Positions 11,632-22,476 of a stretch of 43,441 nucleotides of DNA are shown here, piece after piece. Numbering within the stretch: position 1 is the stretch's first letter; every line of letters starts with the position of its first letter. Made by a program: the position numbers and the translations under genes. The notes beneath the pieces are model-generated. The model was not told the DNA's origin. It saw only the letters and a program-made list of their open reading frames with translations, and searched no databases. The DNA lies in the IMG/VR virus record IMGVR_UViG_3300027906_000039, positions 1 through 43,441 of that record; one strand, 5' to 3'. The stretch is from a virus.

Positions 11632-11811
11632 ATGGAATTTATCGAACTAGAGCACATCGCGACAAGGATACCTGAGCGTGTGGAAATAGATCCTAAGGTA
11701 ATTAATACCGAGGAAAAAGCATTTAGACATTTAGATAAAGTTATGCCTGAATGGGAATTAGATTTCTTCTTCGAAGGAATAACAAAAGGAGTAAATAATG
11801 GCAGCAATTAA
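11632..11811 (+). CDS. 59-residue hypothetical early protein
   Basis: ATG 11632 is preceded by a strong ribosome binding site (AAGGAG) and a sigma70-type promoter. The product is an acidic 59-residue protein (MEFIELEHIATRIPERVEID, then WELDFFFEGITKG) with no membrane helix or known motif. Early phage proteins of this size often bind host enzymes, but nothing here identifies a target. The last 14 bases overlap the next gene. Confidence 0.65.
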   Translation: MEFIELEHIATRIPERVEIDPKVINTEEKAFRHLDKVMPEWELDFFFEGITKGVNNGSN

Positions 11812-12034
11812 AGTTATGGAAAAACAATCCGATTTAAATAACTCTATTTTAGAGGTATTAGATAAAGTGATTGATAAAGTTAACCAATTAGATGATAAAC
11901 TAGATATGCTAGAAAGCAGAATTAGTGAAGTTAATGGTGATACTTCTGGATTAAGTTCTGAGATAAGTGGTTTAGAAAGCTCGATTTCATCAATAGAATC
12001 CAGTGTAAGTTCAATTGAATCACAAATATCGTAA
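11798..12034 (+). CDS. Small coiled-coil protein
   Basis: The 78-residue product is nearly all coiled coil, with heptads such as VLDKVIDKVNQLDDKLDMLE, followed by a Ser/Ile repeat tail (SGLESSISSIESSVSSIESQ) whose seven-residue units recur about three times. It probably forms a helical bundle. A GGAG site precedes the start at 11788-11791. No family is recognised; function unknown. Confidence 0.65.
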   Translation: MAAIKVMEKQSDLNNSILEVLDKVIDKVNQLDDKLDMLESRISEVNGDTSGLSSEISGLESSISSIESSVSSIESQIS

Positions 12035-12067
12035 CGAAAAGTTCACGAGATTGTGACGAAAAAGGGG

Positions 12068-12096
12068 TTTACAAGTCCCCTAAAATACGGTATAAT
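12068..12096 (+). promoter_or_regulatory. Sigma70-type promoter, family copy 2
   Basis: TTTACA (12068-12073), 17-base spacer, TATAAT (12091-12096). The -35 box lies within an AGGGG...CCCCT inverted repeat that may act as a weak terminator for the upstream gene. It drives the 12129-13448 cluster. Confidence 0.8.
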
Positions 12097-12128
12097 GATC
12101 GTATATATTTAAAAAATAAGGAGTTTAA

Positions 12129-12623
12129 ATGCAAAAACTAGTAATATCAACCCAATACCGCGAGAACTATGCGGCTCATAACGAGGACTATAACCACGGT
12201 GTGGATCAACCACATTGGAAATTTAAAGGTGGTACTACTTACGTAGTTCCTAACTTTAAGGACTTTAATAATGTCCAGGATGTAGTTGCAAAACTTACTG
12301 ATCTTATTACTTACTCTAATCCAGGTTCGGAAGAGTATATCTTAGATTTTGAGATTGTAGAACAATCCGCTAAGGTTTGCGAATCTTGGGAAACACCTAT
12401 CCAAGTTTCACAAGATGGTGACAAATTTGTTGCTCTTAAGGTTATTGATAACCGTGAAGATGGTTGGATGAAATCTGAGATCTTAGAAAAAACTGAGGCT
12501 TGGACTATGATGCCAGAAGGCGAAAGAAAGGGTTATTCAGATTCTTTCTTAATGGAAGATGGAGACATCGTTGAAGGCCCAGCTGGTCTCAAAGAATGGT
12601 TTAATGCTAAGGAGGCAGCGTAA
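12129..12623 (+). CDS. Conserved phage protein, early cluster
   Basis: The 164-residue protein begins MQKLVISTQYRENYAAHN, followed by HWKFKGGTTYVVPNF; the same opening is found in conserved hypothetical proteins of several large phages. It is acidic, soluble, with no membrane helix and one Cys, and no recognisable active site. The start has a GGAG ribosome binding site 9 bases upstream, and it lies first in a promoter-headed cluster of four overlapping genes. Function unknown; early expression is likely. Confidence 0.75.
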   Translation: MQKLVISTQYRENYAAHNEDYNHGVDQPHWKFKGGTTYVVPNFKDFNNVQDVVAKLTDLITYSNPGSEEYILDFEIVEQSAKVCESWETPIQVSQDGDKFVALKVIDNREDGWMKSEILEKTEAWTMMPEGERKGYSDSFLMEDGDIVEGPAGLKEWFNAKEAA

Positions 12624-18503: not shown

Positions 18504-20537
18504 TTATGTTCCTGGGGTGGAACCACTTACTGCGGATTGAGTTCTATTTACTCCGGATGGTATAATAGTAACATTTGAAGAGCTAGTAGTACTATTATCA
18601 ACTGAGGATGAGATTGATTGGGTAAGAGCATTGATTGATCTTTCTAATTCTGATGTATCAAGTTCTACCGCCGTTTGAGAAGGGATTAATCCTAAAGCTT
18701 CTTTTAAATTATTAATATCTGAAACTGCATCATCAATTCCATCTATATTAACTAAACCTTTATATTCAATTGGACCATCAGACCATGGCATCCAACCACC
18801 TTCTGTTTTTCCACCTAATAAAGCCATTTCAAATACTTTTGATGCACCTAATAAATCTGAAGCCATCTTTTCAGTATCTAGATTAAAATCAACATCACCC
18901 ATACCAGAGAAATCATCTAATACCTGTTTAAATCGTTCTAAAGAATCTACACCTTTATTAATATCATCAGATTTATCAGCTAATATTAAAGCTTGTTCTA
19001 CTGGGCTTTTCTCACCTGAGAAGAAGTCTAATACTGCTCCTGCGGCTGCTGCTAATGATTGTACAAATTTACCAGCTCCAAATTTAAATAATGCTCCACC
19101 TAATGTTCCTAATATATCACTTACCTTTTGTGCTTTTTCTGGACCATCTGGACCTGCCATCGCTGGTATTGTTAATAATGTTGCTACTTCTGATTTAATA
19201 TCTTCAGCAAAATTATCACCAGCTGAGAATTTGGTAATTGCATCAGCTGCTCCAGCAGCTCCTTTACCTAGTGCAAATGCTACTAAACCTGCAGCTATTC
19301 CACCCATAACCCCTATAAATTTAACTGTATCCCAACCTATACCTTCTATTTGAGCTATTGATAATAATGTTATAATTTCAGCTTTAATATCTTCAGCAAA
19401 GTTATCTCCTGCACTAAACATTGTAACCGCATCAGCTACCCCTGCAGCTCCTTTACCAAATGCAAATGCTGCAAGACCTACTCCTAAGCCTATTAATGCT
19501 AGTGTTAAACTACCACTATCTTTTAATACATCTAAATTACCACCATGTGAGGTTGGAATTGATAATAGAGTTAATACATTATCTTTTATTGATTGTGCCC
19601 AGTTATCTTCACCAGTAAATAAACCTACACCAGCTTGTACTCCGCTAGCTACTGCGTTTGCTCCTTGACCTAATGCAAATACTGTTAAACCAACACCTAA
19701 ACCTATTAATGCAAGAGTAAGTGTTCCACTATCTGCAAGCATATCTAGTTTACCACCTGCTGCTTCTGGTATACTAAGAAGAGAAATAATATTTTCTTTT
19801 ATAGTTTCAGTCCAATCTGTTCCTTCAGTGAATTTTGATACACCTGCTGCAGCTGCTCCACCTACGGCAAATAGTGCTAAACCTATCCCTAATCCAGATA
19901 ATGCTAAAACGAGAGGTCCACTATCAGCTAACATTTCTAGATTACCACCTTCAAAATCATCACCCATATTCATTAAGGTAACAATATTTGATCTTACTTT
20001 TTCAGCATCTAGATCGGCCATAGTATCTGCAAGATATGCAAATGAAGCTATAACAGCTGCAATACCAATACCAGCAGCTCCTACTCCTAGGCCTACTCCA
20101 CCTACCATCTTACCAACCTTCTCCATCATACTTCCACCCTGATCGTTCTGGGCTTTAGCTAATGCGTCTGGTTGGTTTTTAATTGAATCTCTAATATCAA
20201 CAAAGATATCTTTCATATCTTCATCGGATTCACTCTTTTGCATTTTTTCTATATCACTGGATTGCTGAGAGTCTTCTGCAGCTGCTTTTTCTGCTGCAAG
20301 GTCTATACCAAATGATTTATTTAAGGCTACTGAATTGGCTAATGCTTCTTTTTGAATATTCTTCATTTCAAGTAGATGTCTACGAACATTAATCGTATCT
20401 CTACCTAAACTACCACCCGTGGCTTTACTTTGTTCAACTAACGTTGCTTTTATTTCGGATAGTATTGATGTATGCTCTTTCTGGCGTTGTTGTTCTTCCT
20501 CGCCTTGATTAGCATTATTTGTTATATCATCAGCCAT
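18504..20537 (-). CDS. Probable tail tape measure / hub protein with internal repeats
   Basis: The 677-residue protein starts with a Gln/Glu-rich helical region (1-130) and then has about four hydrophobic repeats of 65-70 residues (about 177-449, with a degenerate fifth to about 512). Each has the form I-x-T/S-LLSIP ... GG-x-LDxLxDSG-x-LTLALIGLGVGL-x-FA-x-G-x-GA. A helical segment and a Ser/Thr-rich end follow. Hydrophobic repeats, size, and position just after gp26/gp51 and a membrane protein are as expected for a tape measure protein (T4 gp29 is 590 residues, same cluster). At 1.5 angstrom per residue it would span about 100 nm, close to a T4 tail. Clear homology with gp29 cannot be seen. 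Confidence 0.6.
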   Translation of the reverse strand: MADDITNNANQGEEEQQRQKEHTSILSEIKATLVEQSKATGGSLGRDTINVRRHLLEMKNIQKEALANSVALNKSFGIDLAAEKAAAEDSQQSSDIEKMQKSESDEDMKDIFVDIRDSIKNQPDALAKAQNDQGGSMMEKVGKMVGGVGLGVGAAGIGIAAVIASFAYLADTMADLDAEKVRSNIVTLMNMGDDFEGGNLEMLADSGPLVLALSGLGIGLALFAVGGAAAAGVSKFTEGTDWTETIKENIISLLSIPEAAGGKLDMLADSGTLTLALIGLGVGLTVFALGQGANAVASGVQAGVGLFTGEDNWAQSIKDNVLTLLSIPTSHGGNLDVLKDSGSLTLALIGLGVGLAAFAFGKGAAGVADAVTMFSAGDNFAEDIKAEIITLLSIAQIEGIGWDTVKFIGVMGGIAAGLVAFALGKGAAGAADAITKFSAGDNFAEDIKSEVATLLTIPAMAGPDGPEKAQKVSDILGTLGGALFKFGAGKFVQSLAAAAGAVLDFFSGEKSPVEQALILADKSDDINKGVDSLERFKQVLDDFSGMGDVDFNLDTEKMASDLLGASKVFEMALLGGKTEGGWMPWSDGPIEYKGLVNIDGIDDAVSDINNLKEALGLIPSQTAVELDTSELERSINALTQSISSSVDNSTTSSSNVTIIPSGVNRTQSAVSGSTPGT

Positions 20538-20546
20538 TTATTTTCC

Positions 20547-20924
20547 CTATTTCTTTTGATTATCTGCGTGTTCTTTTGCTGCTGAATTTACATATAGTCC
20601 AAACCATGCTGCACCTGCACCTACTAGTATACTAATAAGCCCTGATTGTTCCATAGTTGGAGCTGGTAAATCAATAAACCACATAACCACAAAATAAATT
20701 AGAAATATGTATACACTTAAAAATGCTCTTGGCCATATTCTCCAAGAATCTACTGCACGTGCTAGATGAATCCATTTTTGCCATGGATTAACCTGATCGT
20801 CAGCTTCAAGTTCTCTAATTCTATCTTTTAATTTTGCTTCATTCGCAATAAGTTCCATAAATTTATTTAAATCTATTTCTACTTCATTTCTGGACATATC
20901 GCCTGAAAATCTTTCGTCTGCCAT
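20547..20924 (-). CDS. Two-helix membrane protein, conserved in marine T4-like phages
   Basis: The 125-residue protein has an N-terminal charged helix (DLNKFMELIANEAKLKDRI), a Trp-rich amphipathic segment (NPWQKWIHLARAVDSWRIWP) and two membrane helices (about 68-88 and 94-113, with ISILVGAGAAWFGLYV). A similar protein is conserved in the same place in marine T4-like phages. The topology resembles small holin-like proteins, but its position in a tail cluster makes a membrane-associated assembly role just as possible. Its ATG overlaps the gp51-frame stop (TAATG). Confidence 0.65.
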   Translation of the reverse strand: MADERFSGDMSRNEVEIDLNKFMELIANEAKLKDRIRELEADDQVNPWQKWIHLARAVDSWRIWPRAFLSVYIFLIYFVVMWFIDLPAPTMEQSGLISILVGAGAAWFGLYVNSAAKEHADNQKK

Positions 20925-21085
20925 TATAAGCTCCTCTGCTTGTTACGAGCCTGCTCCACTTTTTCTATGTGCTCTTTCAGCAATGAAAGGTAAATCTCCC
21001 TCTCCCATGGCATCATACTATCTAATTCTGTCAAACTGTAATTGTGATGTTGCATCAACACAAAATTCGTTTGATAGTGGTTCAC
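20924..21085 (-). CDS. 51: gp51-like frame, probably made as a -1 frameshift extension of gp26
   Basis: From the first possible start (GTG 21085) the frame gives 53 residues: YQTNFVLMQHHNYSLTELD, MMPWEREIYLSLLKEHI and a basic end. The HH-YSLTEL and PWERE elements are those of the short hub-assembly proteins annotated gp51 in marine T4-like phages (T4 gp51 itself is much longer). The frame is open further upstream through the end of gp26 (YLGLSHESIVNH), and there is no ribosome binding site at GTG 21085 or ATG 21055. This suggests that it is translated mainly as a gp26 fusion through the slippery T7 at 21112-21118, giving about 297 residues. Confidence 0.7.
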   Translation of the reverse strand: MNHYQTNFVLMQHHNYSLTELDSMMPWEREIYLSLLKEHIEKVEQARNKQRSL

Positions 21086-21089
21086 TATG

Positions 21090-21118
21090 CTCTCATGTGA
21101 GAGGCCTAGGTAAAAAAA
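21090..21118 (-). promoter_or_regulatory. Putative -1 programmed frameshift site (T_TTT_TTT plus hairpin)
   Basis: In the gp26 frame the mRNA reads AAT TTT TTT ACC TAG. T-TTT-TTT is a canonical -1 slippery heptamer; 8 bases downstream is a hairpin CTCTC-ACAT-GAGAG. A -1 shift avoids the gp26 stop and enters the open gp51 frame. Confidence 0.65.
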
Positions 21119-21816
21119 TTAGCTAATCCCCTTAGGTGTTGCTTATTCTCTTTTTTACATTTTACACATTCAAACTCTAGATCATATTCTAATCTAGGTG
21201 TTTTACTAAAGAACGCACTTATTTTTTGGAATTGGTCCGTTGTTAAAGATTCTATAAAATCCTTAACTTCATCCTTATCCTCTTGTTTAACATTATGAAC
21301 CGAATCGTGATCGAATATAGTATCAACACAAGCGATGATTAAATCCATTAATCCATCTACTGTATCTAAAGCATCTAATCCAACATCTCTTAAAGTATTA
21401 GCTGTAGGATAGGTCATTGTAACACCAACACTATCAGTTAATTTAATAACATTAGCATTTGGTTCTATATCTTTCATCGTTATATCTGTAGTACTAATAG
21501 TAACGGGTGTTTGCCCATCACATTCTGTATCTGAACAATTTCCCATTAGGTTAATTTGTTCTCCTACTGATATTCCTCTTAAATCTAGAAATAATTTTTC
21601 TACATCAAATCCGGCAAGTTTATCTAGGTTAATACCTTTAATACAAGATTCAATTAAGTTACGTATCGCCATTGTTATTTGTTTCGAATCTTCTGATTCT
21701 AACGCCATCAATAGCACCTTTTCTTCTTTGACCAAGTATGGTCTCATAGTAAGTTCCTCACCCGTTGACGGAATTGTCACTGGGTATTGAGGCAAATCAA
21801 TTTTTGGTAAAGCCAT
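21106..21816 (-). CDS. 26: gp26 baseplate hub protein
   Basis: gp26 belongs to the T4 baseplate hub assembly group. The 236-residue product (T4: 208) begins MALPKIDLPQYPVTIPSTG and continues RPYLVKEEKVLLMALESEDS, which is characteristic. A Cys-x-Cys segment (FECVKCKKENKQHL) lies near the C-terminus and, with NCSDTEC upstream, might bind a metal. It ends at FFT-stop, within a TTTTTTT run that should allow -1 frameshifting into the gp51 frame. It follows the tail-tube-like gene and precedes the membrane and tape-measure-like genes. Confidence 0.85.
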   Translation of the reverse strand: MALPKIDLPQYPVTIPSTGEELTMRPYLVKEEKVLLMALESEDSKQITMAIRNLIESCIKGINLDKLAGFDVEKLFLDLRGISVGEQINLMGNCSDTECDGQTPVTISTTDITMKDIEPNANVIKLTDSVGVTMTYPTANTLRDVGLDALDTVDGLMDLIIACVDTIFDHDSVHNVKQEDKDEVKDFIESLTTDQFQKISAFFSKTPRLEYDLEFECVKCKKENKQHLRGLANFFT

Positions 21817-21837: not shown

Positions 21838-22476
21838 TTATGTAAGTAAGTTTCCGATAGCTCTTAGCCCACCGCCAAGAGTTGAACTGAGTGCATCTTC
21901 TGCTACCCAACGATCATACGACCATTGAATAGATATTTCAGCTGATGAATCAGCGGAATCGTTATCGAGGGAATAACCACCAATAGAAGTAGGAAAAGCA
22001 TTAATTAATCTTACTCCATATACTGGTTTATCCTCTTTATTCAACTGTTGTATAGTTACATCAGTCGAAAAATCTTTTTTATAACCAACGTAATAATTAT
22101 CAACATCGAATATGGCTTTTTGCCAACTATCGAACATTGTTTTGATATACATATCGCTGGTTAATCTAAAAACTGTTGTTATTTCTTCATCTGTGTGAGC
22201 ATTAACCATTTTCATTTGGTTAATGTGATTTTGGTAATCTAAAGTTGCTAATTGTCTACTTGGTATACTAGCTGATTTACAAAGTAGATTTATATCTCTT
22301 GGATCATTAATTAAACTTTTAACAGAGAATGATCCACTAATTAGTGATCCTAATAGATTACTGGGATTTAAATTTAATAAAGACATTTTAGGTGGAGTAA
22401 AGATTATATTAAATCTATTTGCATGTAATACACCACCGTGACTTTTTATACTGGATTTTAATTTTTCTATGCTCAT
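21838..22476 (-). CDS. Tail-tube-like (gp19 family) baseplate/tail protein
   Basis: The 212-residue product has the features of tail-tube-fold proteins in T4-like phages: HANRFNIIFTPP at the start, LLCKSASIPSRQLATLDYQ, TTVFRLTSDMYIKTMFDSWQ and INAFPTSIGGYSLDNDSADS before SIQWSYDRW. The set is shared with gp19 tail tube and the related gp48/gp54 caps. As a separate gene next to gp26 it is more likely a tube initiator or connector than the major tube protein, which I do not see in the window. It abuts the next gene upstream (TAAATG). Confidence 0.7.
   Translation of the reverse strand: MSIEKLKSSIKSHGGVLHANRFNIIFTPPKMSLLNLNPSNLLGSLISGSFSVKSLINDPRDINLLCKSASIPSRQLATLDYQNHINQMKMVNAHTDEEITTVFRLTSDMYIKTMFDSWQKAIFDVDNYYVGYKKDFSTDVTIQQLNKEDKPVYGVRLINAFPTSIGGYSLDNDSADSSAEISIQWSYDRWVAEDALSSTLGGGLRAIGNLLT

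Follow-up and report, generated by a model that had tools for sequence, protein, structure and literature searches.

The gp26 gene and the gp51 frame that follows it in this marine T4-like virus appear to form a single cistron that is read in two ways through a −1 slip of the ribosome, giving a short and a long chaperone like the lambda pair; on the sequence evidence, we put the probability of this reading at roughly 0.93. The window analyzed here is a stretch of 43,441 nucleotides, positions 1 to 43,441 of IMG/VR virus record IMGVR_UViG_3300027906_000039, and the features discussed lie on its minus strand (Table 1).

Table 1. Features of the gp26/gp51 locus in the window, in the direction of transcription
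Feature	Position	Strand	Basis and remarks
Tail-tube-family protein, upstream of gp26	21838..22476	−	phrog_45, gp19-like
gp26 ORF, 0 frame, predicted short form, 236 aa	21106..21816	−	PF12322, phrog_150; tail-assembly-chaperone-like; structure model and fold matches
SD-like element AAGGGG, candidate stimulator	21128..21133	−	9 nt 5′ of heptamer; GAGGGA/AAGGGG in relatives, codon-level bias
Slippery heptamer T_TTT_TTT, in phase with gp26	21112..21118	−	sequence; T_TTT_TTN in 168/168 comparable loci; codon-level constraint
−1-frame extension (gp51 frame), 62 codons plus stop, YLGLSHESIVNHYQ...	20924..21112	−	phrog_634 match, tblastn, frame and selection tests
Hairpin CTCTC-ACAT-GAGAG	21090..21103	−	8 nt 3′ of heptamer; lineage-specific, role doubtful
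Small inverted repeat ATAGTG-AAC-CACTAT	21074..21088	−	in window minimum-energy fold; not conserved; role doubtful
Next gene, 125 aa, apparent membrane segments	20547..20924	−	phrog_10198 (unknown function); ATG overlaps gp51 stop
677-aa ORF, tape-measure candidate	18504..20537	−	position and length only

The 3′ end of gp26 reads GCT AAT TTT TTT ACC TAG on the minus strand. The heptamer is followed by an 8-nt spacer (ACCTAGGC, positions 21111 to 21104) and then by CTCTC-ACAT-GAGAG, exactly to the base as a first-pass annotation of this DNA had described the junction. The −1 frame, which had been reported to be open from the slip site through the gp51 frame, is indeed open from the heptamer as far as the stop at 20926 to 20924, and after a slip of one base backward the reading would continue TAC CTA GGC CTC onward for 62 codons to that stop. 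The product sizes given earlier are right as predictions from the open reading frames: 236 aa for the short form and 297 aa for the long form (gp26 residues to 235 plus the 62 codons), the two having a common N-terminal part as in pairs of the G/GT type. A TAA stop in the −1 frame directly abuts the heptamer on its 5′ side, so no start farther upstream can initiate the gp51 frame; the first GTG lies 9 codons and the first ATG 19 codons past the slip.

Both parts of the cistron belong to recognized families. gp26 matched PF12322 (T4_baseplate, the T4 gp26 family) at 182 bits against a curated cutoff of 24.5 (E = 1.5e-53, profile positions 2 to 218 of 219), and it also matched phrog_150. The extension matched phrog_634, “baseplate hub assembly catalyst” (E = 6.7e-25, profile positions 56 to 116 of 121), from 2 to 3 residues beyond the slip, well ahead of any start codon. 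A tblastn search with the extension matched 632 phage records, cyanophages in the majority, and the matches among those listed start at LGL right past the slip; the homology thus covers the region upstream of the first start codon, where family-like sequence had been noticed earlier. Along the locus, a tail-tube-family gene is followed by gp26/gp51, then by a small membrane-protein gene and the long ORF, an order that resembles lambda V-G/T-H. The product of the long ORF had no confident match in Pfam or PHROG, and its counterpart in phiM12 gave weak tape-measure matches (E = 2e-5). Repeated hydrophobic motifs (DSGxLxLALIGLGVGL) were seen in this 677-aa product. No psbA was found in the window.

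Conservation was analyzed in 203 loci with a gp26-family gene, taken from viral contigs and phage records. Twelve Tevenvirinae records with two gp26-family genes were set apart from the single-copy loci, and the comparable set comprised 168 untruncated, single-copy loci exclusive of Ackermannviridae and Vibrio phage D528. An in-frame T_TTT_TTN was present in 168/168 of these, with C as the last base in 110, T in 54, A in 3, and G in 1, and the gp51 tail was in the −1 frame in all 165 loci in which the tail was recognizable. The first-pass annotation had suggested aligning gp26-gp51 junctions for a conserved slippery run and an open −1 frame, and both were recovered; these are the features of a programmed −1 frameshift of the X_XXY_YYZ type. 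Fusions of gp26 and gp51 in the same frame numbered 0/165 among the relatives. C-terminal matches of phrog_150 to the gp51 tail, at first read as in-frame fusions, are explained by gp51 of the T4 type.

Codon choice at the site was evaluated in 87 nonredundant representatives, obtained by clustering at about 85% nucleotide identity; these were picked from heptamer-bearing loci, yet none of the 168 comparable loci is without the heptamer. The first Phe codon is TTT in 87/87 representatives, against a mean TTT usage of 0.63 elsewhere in the gene. The codon before it, which encodes S, D, N, A, F, H, or T, likewise ends in T in 87/87, against 0.58 elsewhere. The naive joint probabilities of 10^-19 (first Phe codon) and 10^-22.6 (preceding codon) are too small because they ignore shared ancestry. 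Away from the site, T6N heptamers occupied 13 of 20,795 codon positions in the same genes of the 87 representatives. Judged from sequence comparison, the conservation of the heptamer exceeds chance.

The stretch beyond the slip bears the marks of coding in the −1 frame. Among 105 distinct 54-nt stretches past the slip, none contained a −1 stop and all contained a 0-frame stop. Differences over the −1 codon positions were distributed 43/28/119, with a pN/pS of 0.15 (34 independent pairs), and the first eight −1 codons alone gave 0.22, or 0.29 where a start codon was absent from those eight. By these measures, the segment ahead of the ATG evolves as a −1-frame protein under purifying selection. 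This bears on the reading implied by most deposited annotations, in which gp51 is a separate small protein, translated from its own start (GTG 21085 or the ATG that lies 19 codons beyond the slip) or by ribosomes that terminate at the gp26 stop and then reinitiate. In many deposited records, the annotated start of gp51 is internal or overlapping, and an ATG does lie 2 to 3 codons past the slip in KVP40-like, Rhizobium, Menderavirus, and phiM12-type phages. However, purifying selection acts ahead of the proposed starts, and no ATG, GTG, or TTG occurs in 54/87 representatives from the upstream −1 stop up to the eighth codon after the slip. The common internal ATG, about 19 codons in, encodes Met in 62/87 representatives and so is not invariant; it also has no SD, its mean anti-SD energy being −0.64 kcal/mol, compared with −1.04 kcal/mol for random gp26 sequence and −4.95 kcal/mol for gp26 starts. 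The earlier statement that the gp51 frame has neither an ATG nor a ribosome binding site at its beginning holds for the ATG but needs qualification for the ribosome binding site, as GTG 21085 is preceded at 4 nt by a weak SD-like GAGAG (anti-SD, −2.7 kcal/mol, versus −6.4 kcal/mol at the gp26 start). Neither a −1 stop in the 105 stretches nor a conserved start with a ribosome binding site, the two results named at the outset as contrary to a frameshift, was found, and the frameshift reading is not refuted. A separately initiated gp51 would furthermore leave the codon-level constraint on T_TTT_TTN unexplained, and we consider it highly improbable. In the records of phages S-CAM1 and S-WAM1 (L001 and L002), the gp51 frame is unannotated, with an apparent gap of ∼180 bases from gp26 to the next gene.

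Candidate stimulators were sought on both sides of the slip site. Structure 3′ of the heptamer is frequent at −1 frameshift sites but is not required. The hairpin noted by the first-pass annotation is present after the heptamer and can form on paper, but it is not a conserved element and its fold is unremarkable (z = −1.46 for the window segment, with 18/200 shuffles equally good). The exact hairpin was found in the window and its near relatives L005 to L007 only, and RNAalifold on 30 ungapped relatives returned 0 consensus pairs, with no conserved 3′ structure and no covariation; the hairpin was consequently rejected as a conserved stimulator. Sequences downstream of the slip were slightly more stable than their shuffles (mean z, −1.1), which coding content may explain. 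An Rfam search of positions 20700 to 21400 gave two matches only, both far below gathering scores.

On the upstream side, most relatives have GAGGGA or AAGGGG 9 nt ahead of the heptamer; the mean anti-SD energy is −5.8 kcal/mol, no weaker than that at gp26 starts and as befits the optional upstream SD-like stimulator of −1 frameshift sites. The amino acid motif encoded by the element is also conserved, and synonymous choice favors SD pairing besides: GAG was used in 35/47 Glu cases (14.8 expected), GGA or GGG in 53/83 Gly cases (33.5 expected), and a wobble G in 47/75 (23.7 expected; z = 6.3). Shuffling the whole segment synonymously gave a weaker signal, with 64/87 representatives stronger than their own shuffle mean. 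In the dnaX gene of Escherichia coli, the in-frame slippery heptamer A_AAA_AAG is preceded at ∼10 nt by an SD-like sequence and is accompanied by a 3′ stem-loop. By analogy with dnaX, the upstream SD-like element may act as a stimulator and is a better candidate than the downstream hairpin, although the relatives of the window differ from dnaX in having no conserved 3′ structure.

A −1 product might instead come from slippage of RNA polymerase, rather than of the ribosome, on the T run, as a homopolymer of 6 to 9 T is found at each site. The run consists of just six T followed by C in 60/87 representatives, however, and the T runs usually needed for polymerase slippage are longer than six. It is also always phased NNT TTT TTN, which tandem tRNA slippage requires and polymerase slippage does not, and the upstream SD-like element would be left unexplained; we hold this to be even less probable than a separate gp51. 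Finally, homopolymer indels are common artifacts, but a frame break due to sequencing or assembly error, or to decay of the gene, can be dismissed because related assemblies L005 to L007 show the same arrangement and the −1 relation is kept in every relative with a recognized tail, isolate genomes included, with no same-frame fusion.

In the ribosomal frameshift that we favor, most ribosomes would read gp26 to its own stop and produce the short chaperone. We infer that a minority would pause at T_TTT_TTT, probably aided by pairing of the SD-like sequence with 16S rRNA, and slip back one base, both Phe-tRNAs re-pairing on UUU UUU, so that translation of the further 62 codons would yield the long form. 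By analogy with lambda gpG/gpGT, the short form may coat the tape-measure protein, the long form may use its extension to recruit tail-tube subunits, and both forms would leave the finished tail. The lambda heptamer is G GGA AAG and differs from that of the window, lambda gpG has 140 aa compared with 236 aa for gp26, and the window has a small membrane-protein gene ahead of the long ORF. The likeness lies in the arrangement: a −1 frameshift (predicted, in the window) close to the 3′ end of the first ORF, and a chaperone gene that comes after the tail-tube gene and before the tape measure, the last having a candidate by position in the window; frameshifted G/GT pairs are documented for lambda and other phages (PMC5009743).

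The predicted structure of gp26 is consistent with a chaperone identity. The AlphaFold model of the window gp26 had a pLDDT of 94, and its top Foldseek match in the PDB was the HK97 tail assembly chaperone 2ob9 (probability 0.94, E = 0.49). VIA alignment gave Z scores of 8.0 for 3fgx, 7.6 for YqbN (3klu), 7.0 for 2ob9, and 5.6 for 5ir0, the next being 4.3 and below. The matches to 2ob9 (82 residues) and 3klu correspond to gp26 residues 1 to 84/86 at a sequence identity of 10 to 11%, and gp26 has an extra domain of ∼140 residues. The fold matches as a whole cover only gp26 residues ∼1 to 94 with middling Z scores, and the Foldseek and VIA scores for 2ob9 fall short of a safe threshold, so the modeled resemblance to the HK97 tail assembly chaperone supports the assignment without proving it. 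Sequence searches of solved structures with the gp26 and gp51 profiles returned nothing relevant, and a structure search with a T4-like gp51 model gave no chaperone among the matches listed.

T4 itself is not a frameshift user. Its genes 26 (208 aa) and 51 (249 aa) are adjacent and divergent, with 20% similarity between the products over 161 residues by BLASTP (E = 2e-6). T4 gp51 aligns with the entire PF12322 profile (E = 4e-52) and also has the phrog_634 extension; T4 gp26 represents the short form. T4 and its relatives lack the heptamer and have two divergent paralogues instead; near the end of T4 gp26, Phe-Phe is kept, as TTC TTT. The short/long pair therefore exists both with and without frameshifting, the slip site being absent where a separate long gene is present, and the T4 lineage can be taken as a natural codon-level control for this site. 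We are inclined, with some reserve, to regard a T_TTT_TTY frameshift, SD-like-stimulated and without 3′ structure, as ancestral in the wider T4-like group, and T4 genes 26 and 51 as a derived duplication in which the slip site was removed and Phe-Phe kept. T4 gp26 (L086, positions 11803 to 12429) also matched phrog_1140, the gp28 family, at a marginal level (E = 9e-4), which may point to a remote relationship among hub proteins. Ackermannviridae (L091 and L108 to L125) and Vibrio phage D528 (L090) have a gp51-like ORF in the −1 frame and no canonical heptamer; this ORF opens only 10 to 22 nt before the gp26 stop, and gp26 ends in GAR ATT TTC ATT TAA or TCA CTT TTC AAG TAA. A noncanonical slip at [AC]TT TTC possibly occurs in these phages.

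The tail assembly chaperone (TAC) genes of T4-like phages were reportedly identified by Vladimirov, Gautam, and Davidson (2022, Virology 566:9-15), in a paper whose title stresses a mechanism other than frameshifting. As cited in the PRFect paper, that work found some T4-like phages with a short gene and a longer fusion gene (PMC10885494), and, as cited in the Adele paper, poly-T slippery sites in the TAC-N genes of T4-like phages (PMC12846349). As predicted for the window, the TACs in these accounts are short and long forms of one chaperone. By the profile matches given above, T4 gp26/gp51 fit the two-gene version; the window differs in having a single gene with a −1 site. The Adele paper also describes a TAC in Vandenendeviridae and Andersonviridae in which a conserved poly-T slip motif and an open −1 frame precede the tape measure (PMC12846349); the arrangement is like that of the window, where the tape measure is a candidate by position, but the motif, GTTTTT, and the virus families are different. 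Going by these citing papers, the interpretation is already known in kind: the idea of frameshifting in T4-like TACs is not new, and the assignment of these genes to the TAC family has been published before. The earlier proposal that gp26/gp51 is the T4-like counterpart of lambda G/GT gains support from the fold likeness to the HK97 chaperone, the short/long pair of T4, and the 2022 paper as cited.

A 2016 review described G-T frameshifting as conserved among long-tailed phages “except T4” (PMC5009743). Our results suggest that this exception applies to T4 and the phages closest to it and that a frameshift of the lambda type is retained by their marine relatives. In many deposited genomes, gp51 is either omitted or annotated as a short independent gene, and the longer fusion is probably made in those phages.
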